From a virus, in the IMG/VR virus record IMGVR_UViG_3300030103_000982, positions 4,364 to 27,964 of that record: a stretch of 23,601 nt of DNA. The stretch is one strand, 5' to 3'. A program made the position numbers and the translations under genes. Under the pieces are notes generated by a model, which was not told the origin of the DNA, did not search any database, and worked only from the letters and a program-made list of their open reading frames with translations. Positions within the stretch are counted from its first letter, which is position 1; each line of letters starts with the position of its first letter. This document shows positions 2,038 through 22,043 of this stretch, in pieces.

Positions 2038-2046
2038 GGAGTATTG

Positions 2047-2779: not shown

Positions 2780-2780
2780 A

Positions 2781-3986
2781 ATGGCTTTCTTAGGATTAAG
2801 TGGTGATGCTTTAACTTTCTTAGGTGGTGTTGCTGAAGGTGCATCTAAAGAAATTGATAGACAGCTAGATAGACAACAAGAGGCTATTAAGGCTGCATCC
2901 TCTGCTGCTATTAGAGCTAGATTAGCCGCTAGAAAAAAATATGATACTGATATAGAAAATATGACAAAGGAAATAAGACCTTTGTTATCACAGTATAATT
3001 TACCTAATGTAGCTGCTCTTATGGCATTACCTGAACCACAAAGAAAAGAAATAGTAGGTAAGTTAGCTACTATAGATGGTAAAGATAATAGAGCTAAATT
3101 TTTTAGTGCTATAAAAGAATTTGAAGGTAAGACCAATTTAACTGAAGCTGAATTAATAAACTCTCTAGTGCCTGCATATAAAGAAGCAGAAATAGATTAT
3201 TCAGGTTTAGTTCCACGAACTGCTGTGGATGTGCTATTTGGTTTTGACCCTAAAGATGAGTTAGCAAGTAGAGTTAAACTTGGAACAGGTGCTACAAGAC
3301 CTGATGTTACTAGACGTGATTTATCATCTTTTCAACAAGGTTTGAGTAGAAAAGGTAAGATAAAAGTATTTGCTGATGATGCAAAAGATGTAGATAACTT
3401 TAGAAGAGCTTTTACTAAAGATATTTTTGCTCGTCTTGGTGGTAAAGGTGTTGAGGGTATTGATGGTATATATAGACCTGAGTCAGGTAAAGAAGCAGAT
3501 TTAACATTAGCTACAACTTATGTTAACTTATTAATTCCTCAATATAATGAAATAGTAAGAAAACTTCAAATAGATGAAGGGTTAAGTTTGATTGAGGCAC
3601 AAAATAGAGCTAGGTCTATTGCAGCAAATAATATTAATTCAAGATACAAGATGGAAGATATTGCAGGCAATCAAAATAAAATTAAATCTATTTTAAACAA
3701 TGCAGCACTTCAAAATCCTGATGCGTTAGCTCAAAATAGTTACATGTCTTTACTAAAAGGTAATGCTTCAGATAAAGTTTCCTTAATGAGTTTACTTACT
3801 TATAATGAAAATAGATATTCAAATAAATTTTCTAAAAATGAAAATATAGGAACAGACTTTCATCAAGAAGTAGAAGGTGAATTAAGAGAAAGATTGACAG
3901 CTTTAAATTATTCTGAAGAAGAAATATCAAGAATTATGAAAGTTTTTACTATTAGGATTAAACCATATGTAACTGGAGGCAATTAA
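2781..3986 (+). CDS. Putative internal virion protein, 401 aa
   Basis: A mostly helical protein starting MAFLGLSGDALTFLGGVAEG, a hydrophobic Gly-rich opening followed by a long charged helix (about residues 20-60, rich in Arg, Gln and Ala). No catalytic motif is visible. It starts two bases after the preceding stop, with AGGAG just upstream in the end of that gene, and is followed one base later by the 1320-aa gene. Lying between the repeat protein and the giant protein, it resembles by position the internal core proteins of T7-like phages. That is a positional inference, not a sequence match. Confidence 0.7.
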   Translation: MAFLGLSGDALTFLGGVAEGASKEIDRQLDRQQEAIKAASSAAIRARLAARKKYDTDIENMTKEIRPLLSQYNLPNVAALMALPEPQRKEIVGKLATIDGKDNRAKFFSAIKEFEGKTNLTEAELINSLVPAYKEAEIDYSGLVPRTAVDVLFGFDPKDELASRVKLGTGATRPDVTRRDLSSFQQGLSRKGKIKVFADDAKDVDNFRRAFTKDIFARLGGKGVEGIDGIYRPESGKEADLTLATTYVNLLIPQYNEIVRKLQIDEGLSLIEAQNRARSIAANNINSRYKMEDIAGNQNKIKSILNNAALQNPDALAQNSYMSLLKGNASDKVSLMSLLTYNENRYSNKFSKNENIGTDFHQEVEGELRERLTALNYSEEEISRIMKVFTIRIKPYVTGGN

Positions 3987-3987
3987 T

Positions 3988-6900
3988 ATGTCAAGTTACA
4001 TCGAAACTTTTTTAAAAGAAGATGCTGATACAACTTCTGAAGAAACTTCTTTAGATGACAACCTATTATTGAATGAGTTTAATACTATATTTAATACTGA
4101 CAGTGATTTAAGTAAACAAACTCAAGAACTTTTTAAAGTTGAACCAACTGAAGTAAAACAAAAGAAACCTACCATAAGTAACATTTTTACAGAAGTAGAT
4201 GTTACATCCCCCGGAACTCCCTTTGTAAAAACTATAAAAGATATTGAAAACAGACCTTACACAACACCTGAAGGTTTGACTCTTAAATCGTATAATAAAT
4301 TAGACAGAAAGAATATCACTAAAGAATCTTTACTGAAAGATGCTTCTTTTCTATCCGATGCTCGTACCTTATTGAAGGCACGTCATAATATTGATGATGA
4401 CGAGTTAGATACACCAGATAAGATATGGGAAGCGTGGACTGAAAGACAGAGATATTATGATACAGGTAATGAGTTTACATTAGCTAGAGATTTTGATTAT
4501 TTATATGACTCAGATGATAATGATGTTAAAAACTCAAGAGTTAATAGATATGGTAGACTTTTAGATGTATGGGAAAAATATAAAGGAGAAGATTTATCTT
4601 TTAGAAAAGTAAAAGATTATATGGGTGCTACTTTCACATCTCCTTCTAATATATTCTCAGCGATGTTAGCTACTAAAGGTAAACTAGGCACAGGTGTAAT
4701 GTCTCAGTCTAGTAAGCAAGGTATTAAAACATATATTAAAGAATTTTTAAAAGGTGCAGCTAAGGTAGCTCCTGTTGAATTTGGTGTTGGATATTTACAA
4801 AGTTCAGGTAAAGAAAAGCTAAGAAGCATGACTATGAAAGAGGAGTATAGACCCGGAGTTGTAGGTTTAGAAACAGGTATTCAAGGTGCAGGTGGCTCTT
4901 TATTTGGTGGATTTAGTTCTTTATTAGAAACAAGGTCTGCAGCTAAAGCAATAGAATTAAAAGAGGCATTTAAACTTTCTAAGGAAGAAGTCAAAAAATC
5001 TGCTAAATTAAAAACAGATGAGTTTCTAAAGACAGTTGGTTTAGAAGATATACAGAGAATATCAAAAAAGTTAGAAAGATTAAATCCAGAGTTAACAGCT
5101 AAGGGTAGAGAGTTACGTAAGGATTTAACTGCAGACCCTAAAAATTTTATAGCAGGACTTCCTGTAGAGTTTCATAATAATTTAGTGGCAGCTACGCTAA
5201 GAATGGAAAAGTTAATTAAGCTAGGTCCTACAGAAAGAGTAACAGCAGGTCTTCATAGAGCTATCACCGAGGGTGTATTACAAAAAGATGGTACACGTAA
5301 ATTATTAGAAACAGCAGAGATTAAAAAAATATTGAGAGACCACAACTTAACAACAGACCAATTTGGTATGGTGTTTTTAAGTGATGTATCCGATGCTGCT
5401 AGAATATTACAATCTAAAGGACAACTAAGTAAAGCATTAACAGATTTTAAACAACCTAAAAAATTAATAAAAAAATTTGGAAAAAAATCAAAAGAGAAAA
5501 TACAATTTGATGAACTGTTAAATAAAGTGGATGCCTTGAATGAAGCTAATTTAACAGGTGGTATAACTAAGGATGTTGCTGATAATGTAGCAAAAGAAAA
5601 TAATAAAGGAATATCATTACTTAGAAATTTCTTTAAAAATGCTGACCGTGCCAAGTTAGGTATGATGACATCTCAGCCACAAACAACTATAAGAAATAAT
5701 ATAAACGGTTTATTTAGGGTGGGTGTAGATACAGGTGTATATGCACTAAATCAGGCATTACAATTAAAAAATCCTTTTAGTAAGGATACACTAGCAATGG
5801 CTAAATATATGGTTAGACCTGCAGAAGCTAGAATATTTAGAGATATACTTAAAGAAGATTTCCCTGAAGAAATGTCTAACTTATTTAGAGAGGCAGCAGA
5901 CCTAAATAATAGAATGGCAGATGATGGAGCAGTAACTAAATTTACAACAAGTAAGATGGCTTGGCTTGGAACGAAGATGAATTATTTCAATACATTGTCT
6001 GATAACTATTTTAAGCAGGCAGCCTTAACGACTTTTTTGCGTAGAGGTATAAATAATTTAGACCCTGAAAATGCTGTAAAAATGACAACGTTAGATTTAG
6101 AAACATTGTTAGCACAGAAGATACAAAAAGATTTTCCAAACATGGAAGCAACAAGAGAGTTTATATCTACTTTATCTCCTGCAGGTTTTGAACAAGCATT
6201 AAAAGATAATAAGATTGGTAATCTTGTTAAGGGTGAAAGAGTACATGACTTTTTTACACTTACTCAGACAGGTAAATTATCTGAAATACCTGATGAGGTA
6301 TTGAAAACAGCTATTCAAGATACTTATGAATTTGTGTATCAAGCAACCTTTAAAAGCGATGGATACTTAAACAGATTCAATAAGATGTTACAATCAGGTC
6401 ACAAAAATTTACCTTTTGTTATATCAACATTTTTACCATTTCCTAGATATACAGCGAACCACCTAAAAACTATCTATAATCATGTTCCTCTTATAAATAT
6501 GGTAAAGATAGAAAACATAGGTAGTAGAAAATTAACTAAAGAAGGTTATACAACTGTAGGAAAATTATTTAAAACAGACAAAGCAACTTTTTCTAAAGAC
6601 TTAGCTAGAGGAACTATGGGAACAGGTTTGTTTTTAGCTGCTTTAGAGTGGCGATATAGACAAGGGAACACTAATCATTGGTGGGAAATTAAAAGTGAAA
6701 CAGGAAAACCTATAGATGGTAGACCTATATATGGTGCATTAGCACCTTGGATATTAGCTGCTGATATAATGTATAGATATCAAACAGATACATTACCATC
6801 AGATACAGGGTTAGGGTATGAACAATACTCAAAAGATGCATCACAAGCACTCATAGGTGTTACAGTTAGACGAGGTATGGGTCTATTGTTTTTAGAAGAC

Positions 6901-7950
6901 TTTGTTAGTACTTTTAGTGAAAATAAAGAAAAGATGGATAGACCAATGATAGATGAATTTATTGGTAATGTTGGTCAGGCATTTATGATACCCACACAAA
7001 TTGTGAAAAACTTTTATGGTATATCTGATAAAGATATGAGGAAAGTTCCTGAAAGTAAAACAGGACAAACAAACATACTAGATACTATTTTAGCAAGTGC
7101 TCTTAGAGGTGCACCTGATTTTAAATCAGTAGATGTTAAAGGAGCAGTCCAAGAGTTTGAGTTTTTTGGTGAAGGTAAATTAAGGGCAGATAAATTATTT
7201 ACTAATATTCCAACTGTAGATAAACAAGCTGTTGACCCAAGACAAGGACCTAGAAGAACTGTATCTCCCATCTACAAACTTTCAGGTTTTACATTAGGAG
7301 AAGCTAAGACTATATTTGATAATGAACTTACAATTTTAAATATTCCTGATAGAGAATTTTATAAAAGAGATTACAAAAATCCACAGATAGAAGTTTCTGC
7401 ACGTGACCTTTTAGGTAAAGATGGTAGTGAATTTAATTTAGCTAAAAGAATGGCTACATATATAAGAGGTAAACCTTATCAAACTATTATAAAAGACGCA
7501 AAAGAAGTTGCTGAAAAACGTGGTGAAAAACTAGTAGCTGAATCTTTTTTTGGTCAGACTGCTCCTGTTCAAGTTGCTCCTGCACAAAGAACTACTGCTA
7601 TTATGAAAATAGCTAGATTATATGTACAAGAGGCTAGAGCTTATGCTGCATCTAAACTTGAGACAATAGAAGTTGAAGCAGGTTTTCCTTACACAAGTAA
7701 GGTAGTAAAAGATTGGAGAAGTCTATCAGGTCAGAAAACTGTAGCAGCAAATGAGCATTACAGACAGACAAATGATTTTGTTTATGATAAAAATAAAAAC
7801 TTAATTGAACCAAAAAATATATATATGGATAGAAATTATTTTATAGTTAAAGGTCCTTTAACTGATAAATCTTGGGCAAATAGAGAAAATGTATTTGTTA
7901 AATACACAGACTACGCTAAAGGTCTAGGTAAAAAAGATAGGTTAAAATAA
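3988..7950 (+). CDS. Giant putative internal/ejection virion protein, 1320 aa
   Basis: The largest gene in the window. Residues 1-60 are acidic and Ser/Thr-rich. Residues 200-320 contain Gly/Ala-rich, hydrophobic stretches (EFGVGYLQSSG; GAGGSLFGGFSS), the kind of segment that could cross a membrane during DNA ejection. Residues 310-560 are Lys-rich helices. The centre (about 770-960) has aromatic segments such as FLPFPRYTANH and NHWWEIKSE. I see no lytic transglycosylase ESG motif and no RNA polymerase DxDGD motif. GGAGG at 3975-3979 gives a good ribosome site. Size and position match the large ejected protein of podoviruses (compare T7 gp16), but the identity is inferred. Confidence 0.7.
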   Translation: MSSYIETFLKEDADTTSEETSLDDNLLLNEFNTIFNTDSDLSKQTQELFKVEPTEVKQKKPTISNIFTEVDVTSPGTPFVKTIKDIENRPYTTPEGLTLKSYNKLDRKNITKESLLKDASFLSDARTLLKARHNIDDDELDTPDKIWEAWTERQRYYDTGNEFTLARDFDYLYDSDDNDVKNSRVNRYGRLLDVWEKYKGEDLSFRKVKDYMGATFTSPSNIFSAMLATKGKLGTGVMSQSSKQGIKTYIKEFLKGAAKVAPVEFGVGYLQSSGKEKLRSMTMKEEYRPGVVGLETGIQGAGGSLFGGFSSLLETRSAAKAIELKEAFKLSKEEVKKSAKLKTDEFLKTVGLEDIQRISKKLERLNPELTAKGRELRKDLTADPKNFIAGLPVEFHNNLVAATLRMEKLIKLGPTERVTAGLHRAITEGVLQKDGTRKLLETAEIKKILRDHNLTTDQFGMVFLSDVSDAARILQSKGQLSKALTDFKQPKKLIKKFGKKSKEKIQFDELLNKVDALNEANLTGGITKDVADNVAKENNKGISLLRNFFKNADRAKLGMMTSQPQTTIRNNINGLFRVGVDTGVYALNQALQLKNPFSKDTLAMAKYMVRPAEARIFRDILKEDFPEEMSNLFREAADLNNRMADDGAVTKFTTSKMAWLGTKMNYFNTLSDNYFKQAALTTFLRRGINNLDPENAVKMTTLDLETLLAQKIQKDFPNMEATREFISTLSPAGFEQALKDNKIGNLVKGERVHDFFTLTQTGKLSEIPDEVLKTAIQDTYEFVYQATFKSDGYLNRFNKMLQSGHKNLPFVISTFLPFPRYTANHLKTIYNHVPLINMVKIENIGSRKLTKEGYTTVGKLFKTDKATFSKDLARGTMGTGLFLAALEWRYRQGNTNHWWEIKSETGKPIDGRPIYGALAPWILAADIMYRYQTDTLPSDTGLGYEQYSKDASQALIGVTVRRGMGLLFLEDFVSTFSENKEKMDRPMIDEFIGNVGQAFMIPTQIVKNFYGISDKDMRKVPESKTGQTNILDTILASALRGAPDFKSVDVKGAVQEFEFFGEGKLRADKLFTNIPTVDKQAVDPRQGPRRTVSPIYKLSGFTLGEAKTIFDNELTILNIPDREFYKRDYKNPQIEVSARDLLGKDGSEFNLAKRMATYIRGKPYQTIIKDAKEVAEKRGEKLVAESFFGQTAPVQVAPAQRTTAIMKIARLYVQEARAYAASKLETIEVEAGFPYTSKVVKDWRSLSGQKTVAANEHYRQTNDFVYDKNKNLIEPKNIYMDRNYFIVKGPLTDKSWANRENVFVKYTDYAKGLGKKDRLK

Positions 7951-9620
7951 TGGAAGATGAAGATAAAATATTAGATGATATAGACAAGTCAAATGCTAGT
8001 AGTGAATTGATTGATGCTTTCACTGAACCATTTCAGTCTGACAATTTATCTAAGTCTATGTTTGAGGCTTTGCCGGGTGTATTTGATGACCCTGTATTTG
8101 GTGGTATAAATAAAACTGTTGTTGGTGGTGCAGTTGATTCTTTAGATTTAGGATTACGTACCATTGAATCAGGTATAAAGGGTGGAGCAGCAGTTATAAA
8201 TGAAGCTAAAAATTATATTACAGGTCAAGATGATGATAGATTAAGAAGAGACATAGTTAATTTTTTTCTTACTGCAGGAGTTGGTGGTGCTACATCAGGA
8301 CCTATGCGATTACAAAAGGGTATAAGTCAGCTAATAAAAGAGGGAAAGAAAGATGAGGCAGCTAAAGTTATATTAGCTGAAAGTGATGCATTTAAGAAAG
8401 ATAATTTTAAGGAAGTTATACTAGCTCAAACTAAGAAACGTGAACCATCTCTTGCAATACAACGAAAAAAGTCTAAGCTACGTACTTTATTTGATGAGTT
8501 GCCTGAATCTGAAAGAGCACTGTTACCTAAACAAATTGATGAATTTAGTATAGCAGGATATCATGGAACATCCAAGAGTAGAGACATGGATAAGCCATTC
8601 TTTGATATAAAGTTTGGAAGAAGGCAAGACGAATTTTTAGGCGAAGGTTTTTATTTTACCCTCGACCCTAAAGTTGCTTCTGAGTATGCTAATATGAGAG
8701 CAATTAATCAGTTAGATATAGTAGGTAAGCAGGGTGGTCAAGGATTATATTCTTACAGACCAACAGGTCAGAAAGTCACAACTAGCACTTTACTTAAAGG
8801 TGTTGACATAGACGGTAATCCAATACCTGTAGGACAACAAGTAGCTAAATTTGATTTATCTAAACTTGAAAACCCTTACGTGGTTAAGACTACTAAAGAT
8901 AGAATTTACTTAAAAGAAAACTTTCAAAAGATAAAGGATGAAGGTTATGACTCTGTTTTGTTTGATAATTTTAAGGACAGGTCAAAACAGATTATGGTAT
9001 TTCCTGAACATATAGGAAAGATTGATGAAGGTAGTGGTGCAGTTAAACAAGCAACCACAAGTGGAGAGAGATATATACCTAGAGAAACTAATACTATTTC
9101 TGTGTTTCCTAAACCTGAAAAATTGTTTCCGAAGGGTGAAGCACCGAAAGGTGGTGATTATATAAATCCTGCAACAGGAGAAGTTATCACAGACAGAAAC
9201 GTTACTTCTGCTAACATAAAAATTAATCCTGATGGAAGAGCATCCTTTAAGGCTTCTGATGATAATGTGGATAATGTTGGAACTATAGGTAAGGGTAATT
9301 CACAGATAAAAGCAAACTTATTCAAGACAAGTGCAGGATGGAAATGGACACAAGCTCCGATGGGTATGGAAGATATAGGAACATTAGTGTCTGTTACACA
9401 CAAGGGTAAACATTTTTATACACTAGAAACAGATTTTACAAAAGGTGTAAATCTAAAAAAATATCCAAATCAAAAGGATGAACCAAAACTAAGACCAACT
9501 GTTGTAGGTAAAATAGAATTGGGTCAACCCATTGGTACAATCTCTGTAAGAGGAAATTCACACAACGTATATGATAAAATTAAAACATTTAATCGTGGTG
9601 GTCTAATGGCAAGAGCCTAA
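7950..9620 (+). CDS. Virion-operon protein with ADP-ribosyltransferase-like domain, 556 aa
   Basis: Last gene of the + strand operon, coupled to the giant gene by TAATG at 7948-7952. Residues 1-120 are acidic then Gly-rich. Residues 200-356 look like an ART fold of the kind found in phage polyvalent proteins (ART-PolyVal, Iyer and Aravind). They show YHGT at 204-207, the G-x-G-F-Y-F-T strand at 231-237, A-x-x-Y-A at 243-247, GYDSV at 332-336 and QIMVF at 347-351. The likely triad is H205, Y235 and Q347; the third position is often Glu in active ARTs, so activity is uncertain. Residues 380-556 are a beta-rich domain of unknown role ending FNRGGLMARA. Such enzymes modify host proteins using NAD+. 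Delivery with the DNA, like T4 Alt, is inference. Confidence 0.7.
   Translation: MEDEDKILDDIDKSNASSELIDAFTEPFQSDNLSKSMFEALPGVFDDPVFGGINKTVVGGAVDSLDLGLRTIESGIKGGAAVINEAKNYITGQDDDRLRRDIVNFFLTAGVGGATSGPMRLQKGISQLIKEGKKDEAAKVILAESDAFKKDNFKEVILAQTKKREPSLAIQRKKSKLRTLFDELPESERALLPKQIDEFSIAGYHGTSKSRDMDKPFFDIKFGRRQDEFLGEGFYFTLDPKVASEYANMRAINQLDIVGKQGGQGLYSYRPTGQKVTTSTLLKGVDIDGNPIPVGQQVAKFDLSKLENPYVVKTTKDRIYLKENFQKIKDEGYDSVLFDNFKDRSKQIMVFPEHIGKIDEGSGAVKQATTSGERYIPRETNTISVFPKPEKLFPKGEAPKGGDYINPATGEVITDRNVTSANIKINPDGRASFKASDDNVDNVGTIGKGNSQIKANLFKTSAGWKWTQAPMGMEDIGTLVSVTHKGKHFYTLETDFTKGVNLKKYPNQKDEPKLRPTVVGKIELGQPIGTISVRGNSHNVYDKIKTFNRGGLMARA
8547..9017 (+). other. ART-like (H-Y-Q) domain
   Basis: Segment encoding residues 200-356 of the 556-aa protein. 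The order YHGT, GEGFYFT, A-x-x-YA, GYDSV, then a hydrophobic strand led by Gln (QIMVF) is the core layout of PARP-like/PolyVal ADP-ribosyltransferases. I judged this by eye from the motifs and not from a profile search. Confidence 0.65.
9617..9620. other. Tail-to-tail operon junction with overlapping stop codons
   Basis: The four bases CTAA hold the TAA of the + strand ART-like gene (9618-9620) and the TAG of the - strand MazG gene (complement of 9617-9619). No intergenic space remains. I see no GC-rich hairpin followed by a T tract on either side, so no intrinsic terminator is evident here. Confidence 0.9.
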
Positions 9621-12881: not shown

Positions 12882-13043
12882 CTACTCCATTGTTACTTTC
12901 ATATTCTTTATCTTTACACCCTCTAAGTCATGGTATAATTCTTTTATATAATCTTCAAAATCTTCTGTCACATCTCCATCAGAAGGAACAGGATATTCTT
13001 CAGGGTCTACATTTAGGGTAATCATTATCTTTACTCTAATCAT
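12882..13043 (-). CDS. Small conserved phage protein, 53 aa
   Basis: Found by hand in the stretch upstream of RNR. It begins MIRVKIMITLNVDPEEYPVP and continues with an acidic segment (DGDVTEDFEDYI) and a short closing strand (GVKIKNMKVT). I recall the EYPVP-DGDVTE pattern from small conserved proteins of marine phages. The ATG (13043-13041) overlaps the preceding stop as TAATG, GAGG lies about ten bases upstream, and RNR starts three bases after its stop. A beta-alpha-beta fold is plausible; function unknown. The RNR promoter candidate lies inside this gene. Confidence 0.7.
   Translation of the reverse strand: MIRVKIMITLNVDPEEYPVPSDGDVTEDFEDYIKELYHDLEGVKIKNMKVTME
12943..12971 (-). promoter_or_regulatory. 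Sigma70-like promoter upstream of RNR
   Basis: On the - strand GTGACA (12971-12966), a 17-base spacer, and TATAAA (12948-12943): 5 of 6 matches in each box. The predicted start is near 12936, giving a leader of about 58 bases to the RNR ATG. It lies within the 53-aa gene. Confidence 0.55.
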
Positions 13044-13384
13044 TATGCGTTACCCTCAGTATCTGTATTAAATGACAGGTAAACAACATTGTCATCTTTA
13101 TCTACTACTTTAGCTTTTTCATTTGAGTTTCTATTCTCATACTCATCAGCCTTTGCCTCTAACTTATCTCTTACATAATCATCTTCTTCCATGACAGGTA
13201 TAGAAGAACATATAGTTCTACAAAAAGACATCAGAGAATAAAAATCATCATCATTCAATGGGTTCTCGTGTGATGACATAATAGTTACATCAACTTGACC
13301 TGTCCACAATCTTCTAGGGTCTAACTGTGGTCTGACACTAATTAGAAAATCTTCAGGTCTCATACTTCTTCTAAATTCTTTCAT
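13043..13384 (-). CDS. Conserved phage hypothetical protein, 113 aa
   Basis: Begins MKEFRRSMRPEDFLISVRPQ, then GQVDVTIMSS, NPLNDDDFYSLMSFC and an acidic, charged C-terminal third. The MRPEDF opening and the NPLNDDDF motif are familiar to me from marine phages, where the protein is uncharacterised. It starts in an ATGA overlap with endonuclease I, with AGAGGAAAG upstream, and its TAA overlaps the start of the 53-aa gene. Always lying among DNA-metabolism genes suggests a supporting role there, but no motif tells which. Confidence 0.8.
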   Translation of the reverse strand: MKEFRRSMRPEDFLISVRPQLDPRRLWTGQVDVTIMSSHENPLNDDDFYSLMSFCRTICSSIPVMEEDDYVRDKLEAKADEYENRNSNEKAKVVDKDDNVVYLSFNTDTEGNA

Positions 13385-13869
13385 TTTTTTACTTTCCTCT
13401 TAGGTTTAGTCTTATATCTTCTTACGATTTTAGTACCTTTAAACTTTATAAATTTAGGATGTACATTCTTTCCTTTTTCTTTTAGCCAATCTTCAGGTAT
13501 TATTCTATCGTAATATCTAAAACCATGTTTATCACACCATTGACCATAAGAAGATTTAGCACCCTTTTGTAACTTAGTTCTACTGTTTGTAAATACAAAT
13601 CGTATATCTAAATCAGGGTGTTGTTTTTTTATAGCTATATGTTTCTTTCTATCTGATGCTAAAAATCTACCCTTAGTTTCTATTATTATTCCATTGTTTA
13701 GTATAAAATCAGGAGTGTACGTTCTGTAAGTTAAGTCTTCCCACTCTATCTTTAGACTTTCATAACCATATTCGCATTTAAGTTCAGTGAGGTATATGGA
13801 TATAGCATGTTCTAAGCCACTCCTATATCCATATTTTATAGCCTCTCTTCTTACTTTATGAGGAGACAC
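13381..13869 (-). CDS. T7-type endonuclease I (Holliday junction resolvase), 162 aa
   Basis: Homologue of T7 gp3, which resolves four-way DNA junctions and helps degrade host DNA and trim replication intermediates. PD-(D/E)XK residues are all visible: E20 (SGLE), D54 (TYTPDF), E64 and K66 (IIIETKGR). The DRKKH, HPDLDIRFVFTNSRTK and SYGQWCDKHGFR segments follow the T7 order closely, and the basic C-terminal tail (KTKPKRKVKK) resembles that of T7. The start is GTG at 13869, directly abutting the preceding TAA (TAAGTG). It overlaps the next gene by four bases (ATGA). Acts as a homodimer in the known family. Confidence 0.93.
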   Translation of the reverse strand: MSPHKVRREAIKYGYRSGLEHAISIYLTELKCEYGYESLKIEWEDLTYRTYTPDFILNNGIIIETKGRFLASDRKKHIAIKKQHPDLDIRFVFTNSRTKLQKGAKSSYGQWCDKHGFRYYDRIIPEDWLKEKGKNVHPKFIKFKGTKIVRRYKTKPKRKVKK

Positions 13870-14088
13870 TTAGAAGTTTCGCCAAGTTATACCTGTGAAT
13901 GGACTATAGGAAGTGCTATATCCTAAGTTCTTTAGTTCTTCCTTTACAGCATCCTCAGCTACTTTTCTAGCCTCTATAGCATTACGCAAACCTTCAGTAC
14001 GTATTTCACGATACTGCTTTTTAGCCTCTGCGAGTTGCTTTTCCATTTCCTGTATTTCTTCTTTTAATTCATCCATTGACTTACTCAT
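13870..14088 (-). CDS. Small coiled-coil protein, 72 aa
   Basis: Residues 3-55 are an almost unbroken charged helix (MDELKEEIQEMEKQLAEAKK) with heptad character, ending in a short aromatic tail (SPFTGITWRNF). It lies between the exonuclease (ATGA overlap, AGGAG upstream) and endonuclease I (its TAA abuts the GTG start). A dimeric coiled-coil partner for either nuclease is conceivable but not shown. No named family recognised. Confidence 0.75.
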   Translation of the reverse strand: MSKSMDELKEEIQEMEKQLAEAKKQYREIRTEGLRNAIEARKVAEDAVKEELKNLGYSTSYSPFTGITWRNF

Positions 14089-14939
14089 GCTTTTCTCCTT
14101 TCTAATTTTACGTACTGAACCATTCTAGGTTCTTTAGCTTGAGACACCTGTGAAGGTAACTCTTCGAGAGTTTCCCAACAGTCTTGTCTGTATGAACAAA
14201 ATGTACAGTTTTTACTTAAAACCATGTTACCTGTAGGTTTACCTCTAAAAGTTTCAGGCTCAGGTTCAAAGCATCGTACTAACTTGTCTGACTCTGCAGA
14301 CTTTATATTCTTTTTGATTTTATCAATCTCTTTGTTCATCTCTATGTGAGCAGGAACATACTTAAATTGACCATTCGCTTTATTGACAACCCACCAACCA
14401 CCTGCCTTTTTGTTAGAGGCTTTTGCGTAACCTGCGAGTTGTCCTACATAACCAAAGCTATCGCCTGAATGTAAAGTCTCATAAGAATCAAACTTATATT
14501 TGTATGACCAATCAGATGCCGACTTGATATCATCAACTGCATCATTCATAACTAAATCATACGTACCTGATATAGTATTATTTTTATCAATGTCAAGAGA
14601 TACAGTATCACTATCTTCAAAGTCTACTTTAGCTGACCTAAGAATAGCTTTGAACACAGCCTCAACTATATCTCCTATCATCATATTCATAACAAATGTA
14701 GTAGGTCTAGGTATCGCTGTCTCAGGTTTATTCTTCTCATACCATAGCTGACAAGAGGGTCTACCAATATTTGACATGCGAAACCTAAAATCCGTATCCC
14801 TTTTTGAGTTGAACTGACGATTCAGTGCATCCTTTATATCAGATGCTACCTGCTCAATAGTCTCAGAACTCATAGCAGTCTCACCCTTACTTGCATTTTG
14901 TAAGTATTGATGAATCATCATTTCAGCAGGGTGGTTCAT
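14085..14939 (-). CDS. Cas4/RecB-type PD-(D/E)XK exonuclease with Fe-S cluster, 284 aa
   Basis: The RecB-family nuclease core is visible: E93 (MIGDIVEAVF), D128 (SGTYDLV), D137-x-K139 (DDIKSAS) and the Q167-x3-Y171 motif (GQLAGYAKA). Four cysteines in the AddB/Cas4 arrangement, C63 then C245-x2-C248-x5-C254, should bind a 4Fe-4S cluster that ties the two ends of the domain together. Enzymes of this family degrade DNA ends; in T7-like phages the same position holds the gp6 exonuclease, so this is probably its functional counterpart, working next to the SSB, polymerase and endonuclease I. Starts in TAATG with the SSB stop, with GAGG eight bases upstream. Confidence 0.9.
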   Translation of the reverse strand: MNHPAEMMIHQYLQNASKGETAMSSETIEQVASDIKDALNRQFNSKRDTDFRFRMSNIGRPSCQLWYEKNKPETAIPRPTTFVMNMMIGDIVEAVFKAILRSAKVDFEDSDTVSLDIDKNNTISGTYDLVMNDAVDDIKSASDWSYKYKFDSYETLHSGDSFGYVGQLAGYAKASNKKAGGWWVVNKANGQFKYVPAHIEMNKEIDKIKKNIKSAESDKLVRCFEPEPETFRGKPTGNMVLSKNCTFCSYRQDCWETLEELPSQVSQAKEPRMVQYVKLERRKA

Positions 14940-15844
14940 TAAGCTACCTCATCATCAATATCAATGAACTCATCTACAGTCTGCATATCATCTTTGCTGA
15001 TATCATCCTTCGCTTTCATATCCCACTCGTTAATTATGTAAGAGTTATAGTTCTCAATCCAAGAAATAAAATTGGAAAACATCTCTTGGTCTTTGTCATC
15101 GAGAGTAACAGCATTAATCAAATCGAGACTAGCTGTAGGTAGATAAAAAGAATTACCATTTGGTAGCTTTCTTTCTTCAGTATTCAAAGCTATCGTATGC
15201 TGAACAGGTAACTTCTTCATCTGTGCTAACTTAGCGAAAGGAATACCTAAAGTCTTGAAGGCATCTCTATTATCTATCTCCCATATAAAAGGATGAGCAC
15301 TTGTATCTAAAGAGTTACCCTTTTCATCTGTAGGTTTATCTAACTCAATAGTACCAAAGATAACACGAACACGTTTGATTTGCTTTATCAAATCCTGTGT
15401 GGCTACAGGTAAAGCCTGAAAGTCTTTTATCCAACCTGAAGGTTTACCACAATTAAAACCACCCTGATTATCTTTCAAATCTATATTAAGATTATCAGCC
15501 ATAATAGTCTTATGATAAATACCCATAGGGTCTCCTGCCTTTGCAGACATATTCTTCACAAATCTTTTGTACATAAATCTTTGTACAAAGGGTCTTATCT
15601 TGGCTGACTTAGAGTAGAATATATTCTCATCAGGAACATCTAACTTGTATGTTCCCCCTTCTACTACTTCCACATTAACATTCTTACCATTGACTTCTGC
15701 CTCGCCCATGATAGGTGAATGATTAATCTTTAATCTAGGAAGATTGTTTGTCTTCCCATCACTGCTAGTGCCTTCATTAGCAATACCCATTGCCTTAGCC
15801 ATAGCATTATAATTGTTAGTATCTATTGTAACTAAATTACTCAT
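14939..15844 (-). CDS. Putative single-stranded DNA-binding protein, 301 aa
   Basis: Lies between polymerase and exonuclease, where T7-like phages encode gp2.5, and ends in a strongly acidic tail (VDEFIDIDDEVA) as phage ssDNA-binding proteins do. The body is beta-rich with basic segments (QRFMYKRFVKNM). An OB fold cannot be confirmed by eye. The acidic tail would bind polymerase and helicase. Good AGGAG upstream, and a near-consensus promoter sits 30-60 bases before the ATG, so high expression is likely, fitting an SSB. Its stop is coupled to the exonuclease start. Confidence 0.7.
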   Translation of the reverse strand: MSNLVTIDTNNYNAMAKAMGIANEGTSSDGKTNNLPRLKINHSPIMGEAEVNGKNVNVEVVEGGTYKLDVPDENIFYSKSAKIRPFVQRFMYKRFVKNMSAKAGDPMGIYHKTIMADNLNIDLKDNQGGFNCGKPSGWIKDFQALPVATQDLIKQIKRVRVIFGTIELDKPTDEKGNSLDTSAHPFIWEIDNRDAFKTLGIPFAKLAQMKKLPVQHTIALNTEERKLPNGNSFYLPTASLDLINAVTLDDKDQEMFSNFISWIENYNSYIINEWDMKAKDDISKDDMQTVDEFIDIDDEVA

Positions 15845-15873
15845 ATGTAATTCTCCTTTCTAAAAGTTTTATT

Positions 15874-15902
15874 GTTATATCACAAAACGTCTTTGGTGTC
15901 AA
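15874..15902 (-). promoter_or_regulatory. Strong sigma70-like promoter for the SSB gene
   Basis: On the - strand TTGACA (15902-15897), a 17-base spacer, TATAAC (15879-15874), with TGA immediately before the -10 (extended -10). Matches 6/6 and 5/6. It overlaps the last codons and stop of the polymerase gene. Predicted start near 15867 gives a leader of about 23 bases containing AGGAG. Confidence 0.75.
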
Positions 15903-17892
15903 GCCAATTATTACCTATTTTTGCCTCTAGTAATAATGGAACATTCAAAGATATTGCAAACTGTTGCTCTATAAGAGCCTTCATGGTATTATTTATATTC
16001 TTTATAAGAGAGATAACAGTATCTATCTCATCAGGGTGTACATCAATAACGATAGAATCGTGTACACTATTTACAACTTTAGATTGTAATACTTCTAACT
16101 TCTTCGCTATGTGTGTAAGTATAAGAGGTACAATATCAGCAGTAGCGAATGACTGCACAGGATAGTTCTTTATCTGCGTGAAGTGAGAAACAGAACCATC
16201 TCTGCGTCTTACTACATCAGGGAAACTAAACTCTCTGCCTGATGGTATTCTAACCTTACCTGTATTCATAACTTCTTTAGCCAATTTGGAGTGCCATAGT
16301 GCGATTCCTTTATACTTTTCCGTGAAGTGTTTGTAATATGTAGCCTGAGAAGGTGTCCTGCCAAATCCTGTTGCTCCATACAAGGGAGCAAACGTGTGTG
16401 CCTTCGCCTCTTGCCTAGATGTTTTTTCGCCTGCATCACTAATAATACGAGCAGTATAACTATGCACATCAAATCCATCTTCTATCTCCTTCATAGCAAT
16501 CTTGTCTTGTGATAGGTATGCTGATACTCTAAACTCTAATTGAGCAAAGTCTGCCTCAAGTATCTGTCCACCCTTCCAACGTGATATAAACACCTTCTTC
16601 ACAGGGAATGTACCACCTCTAGGCATATTCTGCATGTTAGGGTCAGCACCACTAAATCTTCCTGTAGAAGTTCGATGCTGTAACAACCTAACATGTAGCT
16701 TACCATCAGGCTTGATATGTGTGTTGATACCTTCAACAAAAGATGAAAGGTATGTATCAAGTGCTGATAGTCTCTGTAAGTCCGTAAGAAAGTTCATTGC
16801 GTCTGTCATATTCTTTTGTTTAGCTATACCATGTAACATAGCTAGATTAGTTTTGTTTACACTAAATCCATTAGCACTGACCCACTTCGCAGTAGGAGCA
16901 TTGAACTTTAATCCTGCAATAATCTTATTAGGTACAAATAAATATCCAACTGCATCACAATCACTACATTTTGTAGGTTTAGCAAAGGGTGTACCATCTT
17001 TTCTAGTCTTTCTGTAGTAGCCTGTGCCTACACAACTTGAACACTGCTCTGCTCTTGTCTTGTACACAATGTCAGAGTTTTGCCCTATCGCATGTCTGTA
17101 GTCAGACTTATCCATGTATGGAGTAAAACTGTTTGCCCACATAGTCTTGTCGTGTGGCTTTCTACTGTATATCACCCAAGACATCTGCTCAGGACTATTA
17201 AGATTGATAGGTGTATCTCCCATCAACTCTTTGACTTGTCTGTTTAAACGTATCTCTATATCTGACTTCTCTTTCTCAAACTCACTACGAACTTCATCTA
17301 ACTTATCCTTATCTACATGAAATCCATTCTGATATATTCTAGCTAGAGTGATTGCAACCTTATTTGTAAGGACAACTGTATCCATCAAACTTGCATACTC
17401 TGTGGTATTGAGTTTTCTGTATATGACATCAGATAACTCTTGGGTAGCACGTAAGTCTGCAGACAGATAGTCTGCTAACTCTTGTGGTGGTATCTCATCA
17501 ATAGGAACTTTGTTAGCAAAGTATTCCTTCATGGTATCTTGCTTTTTAGTATCAAGGTCATATCGAATAGCACATGCCTCAAGCGATAGAGGTTGCTTGT
17601 TACCTCTCTGCAATACATACTCTCCAAGCATTGTATCAAAAACAGAACCATTGTACGTAAAGCCACACTCCCACAACCACAGTAAGTCGTGTACAATATT
17701 ATGTCCTATCAGGATTGTAGCATCATCTAGTAACTTTTGCACTCCACTAAAGTCATCTCTAAACAAATACTCTTCGCCTTTATCTGTCAGACATCCAACC
17801 ATCACTAACTTATTACTAGCCTCGAATGGGTCGAGATGTAACTTACCATCTCTGTGTGTAACTGTGTTCTCTACATCAAGAGTTAACTTCAT
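15880..17892 (-). CDS. Family A DNA polymerase with 3'-5' exonuclease and zinc-finger insertion, 670 aa
   Basis: Replicative polymerase of the T7/PolI class. Exonuclease residues are D6 and E8, N65 and D69 (GHNIVHD), and Y142-x3-D146. Polymerase motif A is D448 (EADFAQLEFR), motif B is R493-x3-K497-x3-F501-x3-YG, and motif C is H611-D612 (NSVHDS). F501 matches E. coli F762. Between the exonuclease and the palm, C284-x2-C287 (CSSCVGTGYY) and C309-x2-C312 (CSDCDAVGYL) form a DnaJ-like CxxCxGxG zinc finger, near where T7 polymerase carries its thioredoxin-binding loop. From memory, this insertion is known in HMO-2011-type phages. ATGA overlap with helicase. The stop overlaps the SSB promoter. 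Confidence 0.95.
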   Translation of the reverse strand: MKLTLDVENTVTHRDGKLHLDPFEASNKLVMVGCLTDKGEEYLFRDDFSGVQKLLDDATILIGHNIVHDLLWLWECGFTYNGSVFDTMLGEYVLQRGNKQPLSLEACAIRYDLDTKKQDTMKEYFANKVPIDEIPPQELADYLSADLRATQELSDVIYRKLNTTEYASLMDTVVLTNKVAITLARIYQNGFHVDKDKLDEVRSEFEKEKSDIEIRLNRQVKELMGDTPINLNSPEQMSWVIYSRKPHDKTMWANSFTPYMDKSDYRHAIGQNSDIVYKTRAEQCSSCVGTGYYRKTRKDGTPFAKPTKCSDCDAVGYLFVPNKIIAGLKFNAPTAKWVSANGFSVNKTNLAMLHGIAKQKNMTDAMNFLTDLQRLSALDTYLSSFVEGINTHIKPDGKLHVRLLQHRTSTGRFSGADPNMQNMPRGGTFPVKKVFISRWKGGQILEADFAQLEFRVSAYLSQDKIAMKEIEDGFDVHSYTARIISDAGEKTSRQEAKAHTFAPLYGATGFGRTPSQATYYKHFTEKYKGIALWHSKLAKEVMNTGKVRIPSGREFSFPDVVRRRDGSVSHFTQIKNYPVQSFATADIVPLILTHIAKKLEVLQSKVVNSVHDSIVIDVHPDEIDTVISLIKNINNTMKALIEQQFAISLNVPLLLEAKIGNNWLDTKDVL

Positions 17893-19112
17893 GCCTCGTA
17901 CCTCGCTGTTATATAATCAAGTTCGCAATGAACTGTACCATGCCAACCTGTCAACTTATTCTTGACTACGTTTAAATGTCTCTGTGCATCTTCTTCGTCT
18001 TGACCCTCTACTTGTGGATTCTTAGCTATCAATATCATCAAATCAGCCTCGGCAGCTTTACCTGTACGACTGCCTTCCATCATAGCTTGGTTAAGAATAA
18101 CCTTGCCCTCTGCCTCTGCTGACAACTGCGACATATACAATACAGCACAGTTGTATGTCTTAGCTATCTGCCTTGCGTGTATGGCATTAGCTTTGAGTGC
18201 CTCATCATGCCTTGCAAATCCTGCAGTAGTAGCAAACTTATCTCCCATGTCAAGCACGAGTATGTCAGGCTTTTCTGCTTTGCATACACTCTCGACCCAA
18301 GCCATGTCTCTGTTTGATGCATCTCTAATCCTGATGTTCTCAAAGACAGGCTTGTACTTTTGTAGTGCTGTCTCTTTATTCTTTGTAATATCACTAATCT
18401 TCATACCTGTAGATGCAGTCAAGTAACGTACACCAACTCTGTGATAACTTTCTTCGTTACAGAGTATGATACACTTTGCACCTTGATGAGCAAAGCCATT
18501 AGGACTAGCAATCAAACTCGCATGGAAAGATGTCTTACCTGTATTAGGTCTAGCACCTATCTCAACGAGATGACCTGCATTGATACCATCAACTTTACGT
18601 GTGAGACTTGGAATATTGAATGACCATCTAGCCTCTAAGTCATTCTTCTCAAGCAGAGTATCAATAGTAATGTCATCCCACTCAATATTAAGATTGGGTG
18701 TAAAGTCATCTGCATACAACTCAAGAATATTTCTTAGTGGCTCAAGCGAGGACTTAACACCATTGACATAATCAAAACCAAGATTAGCAATATCCTCGCC
18801 AACAACTTGTTGGAATAGTTTGGATAGCACCTCTTGGGCAATGTCTTCTCCAAGTGGTACTTCCTTCTTTATTGTGTTGAACAGTGATGAGTAAGCCTGC
18901 TTTTGTGCAGTAGTCATAGATGCATTATTTGCTAGGAACAAAGCCTCTATCTCATCAGGGGTAACTGTTCTCTCATATCTATTGATTGCTTGGTCAAGTG
19001 CCTGTTTAATCTTACGCACATCTTTACTAAACAATCTGTCAGGACACTTTGCACCTCTATGTGCATCATAGAATGGCTTGTCCATCAAACTTCGTATTAA
19101 TGATAATTCCAT
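17889..19112 (-). CDS. DnaB-type replicative helicase, 407 aa
   Basis: RecA-fold hexameric helicase unwinding DNA at the phage fork. Walker A is GARPNTGKT (186-194), the catalytic Glu is E220 (CNEES), Walker B is DILVLD (283-288), Q329 (MSQLS) is the motif H3 glutamine, and the H4 region with KNKLTGW is near 384-390. Residues 1-150 are a helical N-domain that replaces the primase half found in T7 gp4. The primase is a separate gene immediately upstream, five bases away, with AAAGGAG across its stop. The end overlaps the polymerase start by four bases, keeping the replisome genes in one coupled block. Confidence 0.9.
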   Translation of the reverse strand: MELSLIRSLMDKPFYDAHRGAKCPDRLFSKDVRKIKQALDQAINRYERTVTPDEIEALFLANNASMTTAQKQAYSSLFNTIKKEVPLGEDIAQEVLSKLFQQVVGEDIANLGFDYVNGVKSSLEPLRNILELYADDFTPNLNIEWDDITIDTLLEKNDLEARWSFNIPSLTRKVDGINAGHLVEIGARPNTGKTSFHASLIASPNGFAHQGAKCIILCNEESYHRVGVRYLTASTGMKISDITKNKETALQKYKPVFENIRIRDASNRDMAWVESVCKAEKPDILVLDMGDKFATTAGFARHDEALKANAIHARQIAKTYNCAVLYMSQLSAEAEGKVILNQAMMEGSRTGKAAEADLMILIAKNPQVEGQDEEDAQRHLNVVKNKLTGWHGTVHCELDYITARYEA

Positions 19113-19117
19113 GTTGG

Positions 19118-19891
19118 TTACTCCTTTGGGGTTAATAATTCTAATTGTTTATAGTCTTCTTCTTTCCTGTATTTTAAATCGTCTTGTACTCGTAGTACCT
19201 TAACGTCATTCACATGACCTCGTAATTCTTTCGCAAAAGCTAATGTCTTTGGCAAGGCATCAGGGTCTAAAGCTATTATAGCAGTCGAGAACTGTGAGAG
19301 ATATTTCTTATGTGCCTCAGCTAATGATGTACCCAACACTGCTACCCCAACATATACCTCATTACCTACTGCTACTGCACTCACACAGTCCTCAACAACT
19401 ACTGCCACCCTACCACATCCATGAGTAAAAGGCAAGTTATTTCTTCCATACCTTTTCCATTTGGGTAAACGAGACCCTAGTGCCCTTCCTGTGGCATCAA
19501 CCATTTTATCATCGTGGAGAATAGGAAAGACAACTCTGTCATCTTTCACATCATAAAACAGTTCTATCTTGGACATATCTATACTCCAAGACGCACACCA
19601 AGAAGTGACACTAGGTCTATCCCCATGTGGTAATACGTACTCAGGCAATGTAAAATCATTTACATCATCATCAAGTACACTTGGGTCTATGGCATCCCTT
19701 ATATCTTCTACAGACAGGTGGATACGTGTTGAACCTGATAACTTACAGCTAGACTTGTAACAATTCCACAAGATTCTACCCATATTATTCGTTACTGTAA
19801 AAGTTTTGTATCCATTACAACTAGGACAAGATAATCTTTTAGTCTCTCCTATACCTAACTGTAAATCATTTATATAATTATATATATTCAT
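19118..19891 (-). CDS. DNA primase (zinc finger plus Toprim), 257 aa
   Basis: Makes RNA primers for DNA synthesis. The N-terminal zinc ribbon has C22-x2-C25 and C44-x4-C49, like the primase half of T7 gp4. The Toprim part shows E167 (VVVEDCVSAVAVG), LGTS at 186-189, and D209-x-D211 (ALDPDA), with D237/D238 as the third acidic site. There is no helicase domain, so primase and helicase are split. It starts in an ATGA overlap with the integrase. A strong promoter-like sequence lies just upstream inside the integrase end, which would allow replication genes to be expressed independently of integrase. Confidence 0.9.
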   Translation of the reverse strand: MNIYNYINDLQLGIGETKRLSCPSCNGYKTFTVTNNMGRILWNCYKSSCKLSGSTRIHLSVEDIRDAIDPSVLDDDVNDFTLPEYVLPHGDRPSVTSWCASWSIDMSKIELFYDVKDDRVVFPILHDDKMVDATGRALGSRLPKWKRYGRNNLPFTHGCGRVAVVVEDCVSAVAVGNEVYVGVAVLGTSLAEAHKKYLSQFSTAIIALDPDALPKTLAFAKELRGHVNDVKVLRVQDDLKYRKEEDYKQLELLTPKE

Positions 19892-20811
19892 AATATATCA
19901 TTTTCCCTGTCGGCATTTATAATGCTTATACCATAATTTTTTCTAGTTGTCAATGCATTTTCTGCACTAGCATACGTATTTTTCATGTAAGGCTTTACAC
20001 TATTAGGATTAGCATGACCTGTAACAGACATAATCTGACCCATAGAAACTCCTGCCTCAACCATCTCTGTAGTTCCTGTCCTACGTAAATCAGCTATTCT
20101 AAGCTCGTTAGGTAAGCCACAGAGCCTCATAACCCTTCTTGCTATCTTGGACAACCTATAAAGAGTATAAGGCTTGTATGAGCCTCTAATCGCCTTTGGA
20201 CAGGGTGCAACATATTCTTGGAATCCATAGTCATTCTTTTGTTGACTTAACATTTCAAGTAATTCATCACTAATTGGTAGGTGTACAACTGCTCTTCGCT
20301 TAGATTGTTGCAAATTTAACACACGATTATCAAAATCTATGGAAGTAAACTTCAAATTTCGCATGTCTCCTACTCGTTGACACCATTCGTATGCCATTTG
20401 CACTATCAAACCCATACTTCTGTACTTAAAATCAGCATAAGCATAGTCAAGAAATTGACAAACCTGTTCTTTTGACCATACTACTTTGCGAGGTTGTGTT
20501 GGTTTACGTTTGAAAGTAGAGAAAGGGTTAGTCTCTGCGTACTCCATTTCCATTGCGAATCCAAAAAGTCTTCGTGAAACAGAGCAAGTATAGTTTGCCA
20601 TAGGAATACCTCTTTTTAGCCATATTTCATAGGCACGTCTACACATACCACCTGTTAATTTAGTTAGATTGACAGAGCCAAGTTTTTTGGTGTCTATGAT
20701 AGTAGTAGACATGACACCTAAGAAATACTTATAATCTACTTTAGATTTATCTGATAACATATTGAAATCACTAGATAAATAATACTCATCAATCAACTTA
20801 TTTATTTTCAT
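19888..20811 (-). CDS. int: Tyrosine recombinase/integrase, 307 aa
   Basis: Two-domain tyrosine recombinase: SAM-like core-binding domain (about 1-105) and catalytic domain (about 110-290). Catalytic residues: R146 (CQRVGDMRNL), K171 (QQSKRR), R243 (ADLRRTG), H266 (TGHANP) and nucleophile Y275 (VKPYMKN). The usual histidine two residues ahead of the DLRR core is Ala (A240), a replacement tolerated in some members. GGAAGG lies ahead of the ATG. It implies integration into a host chromosome or resolution of phage DNA. No attP-like tRNA fragment is seen next to it, and no repressor is in the window. It overlaps the primase start. Confidence 0.92.
   Translation of the reverse strand: MKINKLIDEYYLSSDFNMLSDKSKVDYKYFLGVMSTTIIDTKKLGSVNLTKLTGGMCRRAYEIWLKRGIPMANYTCSVSRRLFGFAMEMEYAETNPFSTFKRKPTQPRKVVWSKEQVCQFLDYAYADFKYRSMGLIVQMAYEWCQRVGDMRNLKFTSIDFDNRVLNLQQSKRRAVVHLPISDELLEMLSQQKNDYGFQEYVAPCPKAIRGSYKPYTLYRLSKIARRVMRLCGLPNELRIADLRRTGTTEMVEAGVSMGQIMSVTGHANPNSVKPYMKNTYASAENALTTRKNYGISIINADRENDIL
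19925..19953 (-). promoter_or_regulatory. Strong sigma70-like promoter for the primase-helicase-polymerase block
   Basis: On the - strand TTGACA (19953-19948), a 17-base spacer, TATAAG (19930-19925), with TGG just before the -10 (extended -10). Matches 6/6 and 5/6. It lies in the last codons of the integrase; the predicted start near 19918 gives a leader of about 27 bases to the primase ATG. Confidence 0.7.
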
Positions 20812-20829
20812 ATTACACCTTCCATTATT

Positions 20830-21078
20830 CTATGCCACATTTTTCTTTCCTCTCTTTACAAATTTATAATCTCTCCATCTGTCTGCATAACTATGCTCAC
20901 ACTTAGGTAGTTCTAAGTTAAATATGTCTGCTAGTATAAATTCTAAGCTAGGTAATTCAACTACTGTGTGGTAGTCTAAAGGCATACCCTCATTAATATT
21001 ATTAACTATATCTTTCAAATTATTAATTTGTTTTAGTAATCTTTCTTCTTGTACTTCTGTAAGTTTAATCGTTGTCAT
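20830..21078 (-). CDS. Small hypothetical protein, 82 aa
   Basis: Starts MTTIKLTEVQEERLLKQINN at 21078, chosen because AAGGAG lies directly upstream; a longer frame starting at 21129 lacks this. Helical N-terminal half, acidic middle, and a basic, aromatic C-terminus (YADRWRDYKFVKRGKKN). Lies between the CD-x-HVVKM protein and the integrase with a 16-base gap on the upstream side. No family recognised. The size and charged tail would suit a small regulatory or DNA-binding protein, for example an excisionase, but no helix-turn-helix is clear and I do not assign one. Confidence 0.65.
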   Translation of the reverse strand: MTTIKLTEVQEERLLKQINNLKDIVNNINEGMPLDYHTVVELPSLEFILADIFNLELPKCEHSYADRWRDYKFVKRGKKNVA

Positions 21079-21094
21079 TTTACTTCTCCTTTTA

Positions 21095-21694
21095 TTATCT
21101 ATGTCCATACGATTCTGCATTTGACCCACGTGCTACTACACAACCTAGTGGTGCTATGTCACAGTTAGGGTAACTAAAACAGGCTATATGTTTATCTTCT
21201 TCATAAAACCAATCAGGTCTTTCTGTATATTTATATCTTGCAAATTTCATTTTGTCAACAATATAAAATGACCTATATGCTTGTATGGGAAAGTCCTCAT
21301 CTGTTTTTAATTCATCATGCCCACTAAAACATTGTGGGTGTGGTGTTATAGATGTCGTAGTGTCAGGTATATATTCTGCACCTAGAACGATTGCATCATA
21401 GTGTTTACTTGCACCATGAGTTTTGTTGTATCGCTTAGTATATTCCTGTAGCATTGCAATATACAAGTTGGTTGCCCACATATAATTCATGCGACATTCC
21501 ATTGCCCATAGTGTACAAGGATGTTTTTGATGTACAGGTTTATACAAATTTTTTTCCTCTGCATAACTAGGTGCATGATGCCATAGTGCAGTACACAACA
21601 TCTGTGCCTCTTCTAGTGGCATCTTGACTACGTGTTGGTCACATAGAGATGATGCAATCTTTTGTGGTGTATCTTCTATAAGAAATCTATTCAT
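21095..21694 (-). CDS. Conserved phage CD-x-HVVKM family protein, 199 aa
   Basis: Begins MNRFLIEDTPQKIASSLCDQ; the signature C18-D-Q-H21-V-V-K24-M is followed by a helical body with HPCTLW near 55-62 and an aromatic C-terminal half (YRSFYIVDKMKFARYKY). This is a widespread uncharacterised phage family, sometimes labelled pyrimidine-dimer-glycosylase-like because T4 endonuclease V also has a DQH near its N-terminus; I regard that link as weak. The start at 21694 is fixed by AAGGAGGAG. A longer frame begins at 21739, inside the membrane protein gene. The first eight bases overlap the preceding gene. A promoter candidate lies inside this gene. Confidence 0.75.
   Translation of the reverse strand: MNRFLIEDTPQKIASSLCDQHVVKMPLEEAQMLCTALWHHAPSYAEEKNLYKPVHQKHPCTLWAMECRMNYMWATNLYIAMLQEYTKRYNKTHGASKHYDAIVLGAEYIPDTTTSITPHPQCFSGHDELKTDEDFPIQAYRSFYIVDKMKFARYKYTERPDWFYEEDKHIACFSYPNCDIAPLGCVVARGSNAESYGHR
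21230..21258 (-). promoter_or_regulatory. Sigma70-like promoter upstream of the 82-aa gene and integrase
   Basis: On the - strand TTGACA (21258-21253), a 17-base spacer, TATAAA (21235-21230). Matches 6/6 and 5/6. It lies inside the CD-x-HVVKM gene. The predicted start near 21223 would transcribe the 82-aa gene and integrase. Confidence 0.6.
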
Positions 21695-22043
21695 GTTCTC
21701 CTCCTTTGTCATTATCATCATACTTAATTCTCTTGCCATTGTGATACATATATCTACTTCTGCTTGGTGTGTGATAACCTTTCTTCAAAAAGAATGTAGG
21801 CTTTCTCTTTGCAGTTTCAAACGTAGCTACAGTTAATACAATAGCACCTATTAAAAACACGTGAGCAACTGCAGTTATACCAAACACCCACATACTACCA
21901 AAGTACATAGAGAATACAATGCACCACATCCATGCTAACACTTGCATGACCATGTGTCTAGTATTTAAATCAGGTATATATTTCAATGGGTTACGCTGAT
22001 GATTCATAATCAGTTGCCATGTATCATGTACTACTTTAGTCAT
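21687..22043 (-). CDS. Two-helix membrane protein, 118 aa
   Basis: Residues 1-30 are polar (DTWQLIMNHQRNPLKYIPDL). Two hydrophobic helices follow at about 32-54 (VMQVLAWMWCIVFSMYFGS) and 55-75 (FGITAVAHVFLIGAIVLTV). Then comes a basic tail (KRKPTFFLKKGYHTPSRSRY) ending in Asp/Gly-rich residues. I recall the HQRNP and MQVLAWMW motifs from other marine phages, uncharacterised. It lies three genes after the lysin, so a holin-like role is possible, though the long tail is unusual. AGGAG upstream is part of a 16-base repeat shared with the 46-aa gene. Its stop overlaps the next start by eight bases. Confidence 0.8.
   Translation of the reverse strand: MTKVVHDTWQLIMNHQRNPLKYIPDLNTRHMVMQVLAWMWCIVFSMYFGSMWVFGITAVAHVFLIGAIVLTVATFETAKRKPTFFLKKGYHTPSRSRYMYHNGKRIKYDDNDKGGEHE

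Follow-up and report, generated by a model that had tools for sequence, protein, structure and literature searches.

Three sites on the − strand of a 23,601-nucleotide stretch of viral DNA (the window hereafter; positions 4364–27964 of the 27,964-base IMG/VR record IMGVR_UViG_3300030103_000982) are, judging by their letters and by comparison with related phages, very probably real start signals for phage genes. Each pairs a perfect TTGACA with TATAA across exactly 17 bases. We consider it likely (probability about 0.75) that they belong to an HMO-2011-type class, TTGACA-N16/17-TA[T/A/C]AAC and then usually TA, which the host sigma70 RNA polymerase would read as promoters of the kind lacking T at the last −10 position (−7T). 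The DNA polymerase of the window is 64% identical over its full length to those of Roseobacter phage CRP-345 and Puniceispirillum phage HMO-2011, and the gene order agrees with theirs, which identifies the phage, by sequence, as HMO-2011-type. The original prediction had described a recurrent promoter buried in gene ends of the early strand at four sites, and the coordinates, letters and exact 17-base spacer of all four were found as described:

Site 1, 15874..15902, − strand: TTGACA-N17-TATAAC before SSB; predicted start near 15867.
Site 2, 19925..19953, − strand: TTGACA-N17-TATAAG with a TGG extended −10, in the 3′ end of the integrase gene and before primase; predicted start near 19918.
Site 3, 21230..21258, − strand: TTGACA-N17-TATAAA inside the Pyr_excise gene, upstream of a 99-aa open reading frame and the integrase; predicted start near 21223.
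Site 4, 12943..12971, − strand: GTGACA-N17-TATAAA before RNR; rejected as a promoter.

As a recurrent promoter in gene ends, the proposal is well supported for sites 1 and 2 by DNA-level conservation in about 80–90 relatives, is supported for site 3 in 20 of the 20 relatives that keep TTGACA, and is not supported for site 4. Its extended −10 TG was likewise present in two sites (site 1, TGATATAAC; site 2, TGGTATAAG). Over the whole window, TTGACA occurs nine times on the − strand, with TATAA at spacer 17 in three cases, and ten times on the + strand, with none; the two + strand copies within 1–9620 (3894 and 8803) lack a −10 partner, as had been stated. That three such pairs would hardly arise by chance was borne out by two kinds of shuffling: no dinucleotide shuffle of the early strand held three sites (n = 2000; 44 held one, mean 0.022), and synonymous-codon shuffles reached three in 2 of 3000 (mean 0.25). 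Among the 11 isolates and the window, the spacers of TTGACA/TATAA pairs were 16 bases in 6 cases and 17 in 11, with 0–2 at any other length from 8 to 30. The scan against shuffled sequence that had been proposed gave an early-strand excess for TTGACA-N17-TATAA and no excess for a generic sigma70 matrix demanding T at the last −10 position (37 vs. 46 expected and 38 vs. 46). The generic scan misses sites 1–3 because it requires −7T, which none of them has. The TATAAN of the original prediction was correct in its letters, but its N is never T, a point not remarked there.

At site 1 the element TTGAC[AG]-N16/17-TA[TAC]AAC recurs in 88 of 93 polymerase clusters (<90% nucleotide identity); these clusters, like the 51 coat representatives below, come from searches listing at most 80 loci each, and all conservation counts here are of related sequences and not of independent events. 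Within the 88, the −35 is TTGACA in 85 and TTGACG in 3, the −10 is TATAAC in 84, TAAAAC in 3 and TACAAC in 1, and the spacer is 17 in 86 and 16 in 2, while C stands at −7 in every one (88/88). A TG precedes the −10 in 86 of the 88, mostly supplied by the stop codon TGA of the DNA polymerase gene, which doubles as the extended −10 in the window too. TTGAC is spelled by a Leu CTT and an Asp GAC codon, and all 109 sequences use both, where pooled codon frequencies would predict 18% and 39%; the adjoining Thr, Asp and Val codons change at the median rate.

Site 2 retains its −35, TTGAC[AG], in 64 of 81 unique relatives, of which 40 have TATAAG or TAAAAG at spacer 17 and one has it at spacer 18; nine relatives carry TACAAT or TAAAAT at spacer 16, and the −7 base across relatives is mostly G. 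The Leu TTG, Ile ATA and Ser AGC codons at this site lie in the 97th–100th percentile of synonymous conservation for the integrase gene. Because synonymous positions are conserved at sites 1 and 2, the DNA itself is under selection there.

At site 3, TTGACA is kept in 20 of 30 unique relatives, all 20 with TA[TC]AA[ACG] at spacer 17, and in some relatives the full class motif stands at this position (TATAACTA/TACAACTA). The Val GTT and Asp GAC codons rank in the 98th and 89th percentiles of synonymous conservation. The −7 base is A, C or G, and T in none of the 20. AAC occurs in 7 of the 20 and AAT in none, AAT being the commoner Asn codon in two other genes measured; this hints that T is avoided at −7 in these related sequences. 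The comparison supports site 3 as a member of the promoter class with a drifting −10. Site 4 was rejected because both hexamers have changed at codon third positions across about 45 relatives, where the −35 reads GT[ACGT]AC[AT] and TATAAA is usually TATGCG or TATGAA; by this pattern it is a coding coincidence.

Restricting the element to the early strand, as the original prediction did, proved too narrow, since the best-conserved copy, TTGACA-N16-TATAACTAT, lies on the late strand of relatives, in non-coding DNA about 185–225 nt before the coat start codon. Among 51 non-redundant relatives this coat promoter has TTGACA in 51, TATAAC in 49 (TA[AC]AAC in the remaining two), C at −7 in 51 and spacer 16 in 48. 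The letters of the spacer are free, and the flanks are conserved, with TATA after the −10 and an A-rich stretch plus GTG (AAAAAAGTG) directly before the −35. Given this copy before the coat gene, the element is best classed, on sequence, as a lineage-wide sigma70-type promoter and not an early-strand peculiarity. The pattern TTGACAN{16,17}TANAACTA matched 48 times across 22 phage records and its reversed form never; two of these matches lie at the place of site 3 in relatives. When viral contigs were scanned with TTGACAN{16,17}TATAACTAT, 100 of 117 loci among the matches listed carry HMO-2011-type core genes, and 61 of the listed matches lie at coat and 31 at SSB. In HTVC033P the motif is found elsewhere in the early region.

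Sites 1–3 have the makings of a sigma70 promoter, namely a perfect −35, hexamers 17 bases apart (16 or 17 in the wider class, the sigma70 range being 16–18) and five of the six −10 bases. They depart from the canonical Escherichia coli sigma70 promoter (TTGACA-N17-TATAAT), which they resemble in −35, spacing, five −10 bases and a TG in two of three sites, by having C, G or A at −7. T is found at −7 in over 95% of E. coli and Bacillus subtilis sigma70 promoters. Among alphaproteobacterial sigma70 promoters, by contrast, over 60% have a base other than T at −7 and the favoured spacer is 17, and CarD has been proposed to compensate for the missing base (Myers et al. 2021, PMC8407463). With a TTG-type −35, a 17-base spacer and no −7T, the window sites look like these −7A/C/G promoters; isolates of the group infect Rhodobacteraceae, Puniceispirillum (SAR116) or Pelagibacter. 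The phage elements differ from the bacterial ones in that the −35 is almost always a perfect TTGACA, and in that C is fixed at −7 of the SSB and coat promoters, where the four bases are about equally common in the bacteria (PMC8407463). Exceptions with −7T occur among the isolates: two in HMO-2011, at 31754 and ahead of the leftmost late-strand gene, and one in CRP-2 at a site where CRP-603 carries C.

We propose that the host sigma70 RNA polymerase is the likeliest reader of sites 1–3, the perfect −35, the good spacing and often the extended −10 TG offsetting the missing −7T, and that host CarD or a phage factor probably aids opening of the DNA, the part given to CarD being drawn from the literature on the host class. 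We infer a transcription start at each motif: from site 3 transcription would resume ahead of the integrase block, from site 2 ahead of primase, helicase and polymerase, and from site 1 ahead of SSB, exonuclease, endonuclease and RNR, and in relatives a further copy would drive the coat gene on the opposite strand. The predicted starts lie about 23 nt (site 1) and 27 nt (site 2) upstream of the SSB-like and primase start codons. CarD-family domains are present in both alphaproteobacterial genomes tested; in the 11 isolates neither a CarD gene nor a sigma factor above the family cut-off was found. CRP-212, which is without the motif, has a Sigma70_r4-like match below the cut-off (20.4 bits) in a 224-codon frame at 52190–52291 (− strand). 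A T7-type RNA polymerase (PF00940) gave no match in the 11 isolates and G000, in a search whose positive control was also silent, and none is annotated in the isolates; nor is the motif one contiguous block of about 20 bases as in T7-type promoters, being two hexamers around a free spacer of 16 or 17.

Several results weigh against this proposal. The motif was not found in the deep CRP-3 branch, where inspection for a counterpart gave none that was clear. In 142 alphaproteobacterial genomes TTGACA-N16/17-TATAAC is not enriched (51 matches vs. 69 reversed), and the TATAAT version is (150 vs. 55 reversed), an excess that comes mostly from a few genomes in a sample that does not consist of hosts of this phage group. 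Roseobacter phage SIO1, moreover, uses −7T (TATAAT). Simple mimicry of the host as the cause of −7C was rejected, since neither these 142 nor 97 Pelagibacterales genomes gave supporting enrichment. From the sampled genomes and SIO1 the fixed C therefore looks lineage-selected, apparently a trait of these phages. A stronger version, in which −7C is actively maintained and −7T selected against so that mid-operon and capsid promoters continue to need an accessory factor (CarD or a phage protein), is plausible, though we would bet slightly against it. If true, a single base at −7 would be a lineage-wide gate on phage gene timing.

The fixed −7C, which is not preferred in the sampled alphaproteobacterial genomes or SIO1, can also be explained by a phage-coded factor that retargets or modifies the host polymerase, the −7C promoters then firing after the first genes as a middle or late class. 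We regard this as unlikely, though it accounts for the conserved flanks of the coat promoter, TATA behind the −10 and AAAAAAGTG ahead of the −35, and two small genes track with the motif, one for a 71-aa first late gene product and one for an acidic 113-aa protein (window 13043–13384, − strand), present in six of six CRP/HMO-2011 isolates with the motif and none of four CRP isolates without it. A comparison of gene presence and absence across isolates as a way to such a factor was discarded: five genes track with the motif, in a pattern that mirrors one branch split. Neither candidate protein matches PHROGs or, by fold, significantly matches any PDB entry, and the 113-aa protein, whose fold is predicted with fair confidence, has no Pfam match; the −35, the spacing and the extended −10 are, besides, ordinary sigma70 features.

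That conserved protein sequence forces the hexamers is the least probable explanation. Sites 1–3 do overlap coding sequence, the synonymous-codon shuffle still yields 0.25 sites on average, and site 4 behaves in just this way, for which the explanation stands. It is contradicted for sites 1 and 2, as the codon choice in the hexamers is fixed while adjoining codons drift, the −10 of site 1 falls between genes, and the coat copy stands entirely in non-coding DNA. Reading the two boxes as an operator or another protein-binding site would suit the unusually strict conservation, including the bases flanking the coat hexamers, but is very improbable: the sigma70 geometry, the one-base freedom of a spacer with free sequence, and the place before start codons fit a promoter best.

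SIO1 (Cobavirinae), from a different Roseobacter phage lineage, offers a close parallel, with a recurrent TTGACA-N17-TA[TC]AA within one genome, and differs in its −7T and the common tail TATAATAGTCTTAA; two promoter-like copies of TTGACA-N17-TATAATAGTCTTAA lie at 37512 and 8612 on its − strand. For members of the Cobavirus group, the absence of a phage RNA polymerase has been reported (PMC6918029). T4 middle promoters, also a phage promoter class read by the host polymerase, combine a MotA box with TATAAT and are without a consensus −35, whereas the −35 here is perfect. HMO-2011-type phages have been reported as a dominant and widely distributed marine group, and the open-access papers on the group that were searched by full-text terms make no mention of their promoters. 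A class fixed for a non-consensus −7 base provides a natural test of why Alphaproteobacteria tolerate the lack of −7T and of what CarD does there. TTGACA-N16/17-TATAACTAT can further serve as a sequence signature marking this phage group in metagenomes, and promoter finders trained on E. coli will miss such phage promoters.

The replication strand is the − strand, running from about 23,600 to 9,617 through integrase, primase, helicase, polymerase, SSB, exonuclease, endonuclease, RNR and a MazG-like gene, while the + strand at 1–9,620 holds what by position are the late genes. The genes next to sites 1–3 are:

SSB-like gene, 14939..15844, − strand: open reading frame that site 1 would serve, in the same place in HMO-2011 and CRP phages.
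DNA polymerase A gene, 15880..17892, − strand: the polymerase 64% identical to that of CRP-345/HMO-2011; its last codons and stop codon carry site 1.
DNA primase gene, 19118..19891, − strand: would be served by site 2; named by place and by relationship to the annotated primase of HMO-2011/CRP phages.
Tyrosine-recombinase integrase gene, 19888..20811, − strand: Pfam Phage_integrase, 4e-18; carries site 2 and lies downstream of site 3.
Pyr_excise (pyrimidine-dimer glycosylase) gene, 21095..21739, − strand: PF03013, 1.7e-6, and PHROG 624, 1.3e-41; carries site 3.

The SSB-like product has no family match in Pfam or PHROG, and its name comes from the original prediction and from roseophage gene maps, one of which bears the label SSB (PMC6918029).

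Outside the window, in six isolates, a TTGACA stands directly against the start ATG of the leftmost late-strand gene (53152–53181, − strand, in HMO-2011), with TA[AC]AACTAT at spacer 16 within the gene. Its product is a conserved protein of about 70–85 aa with three helices predicted at modest confidence and no relative found. The leader between coat promoter and start codon is strongly conserved (about 37393–37583, − strand, in L084, and loci L252–L331), looks like a structured RNA and matches no Rfam family. Comparison of 18 relatives gave changes on both sides, with the pair kept, at 16 of the 17 predicted pairs, though many pairs are broken in some sequences; the core (ACC..GGCCCG..CGCACC) can be made out in the CRP-3 branch as well. 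From this predicted structure, the leader is possibly a new RNA regulating coat synthesis. HMO-2011-type coat genes on contigs of Flavobacteriales, Neomarinimicrobiota, Euryarchaeota and other metagenome-assembled genomes (L332–L343), and an apparent phage SSB promoter in a Maricaulis genome of this kind (G012, contig 54), most likely reflect misbinned phage contigs.

In the 97 Pelagibacterales genomes TTGACA-N16/17-TATAAT is strongly depleted (10 matches vs. about 150 reversed). TTGACA-N17-TATAAC, in the same layout as in the phages, is conserved in 18 of the 97 before an acyl-CoA-dehydrogenase-like gene (L468–L471). The conserved SAR11 site was rejected as an rRNA or tRNA promoter. The ATG of the acyl-CoA-dehydrogenase-like gene begins 8 nt after the −10, and its mRNA may be leaderless.

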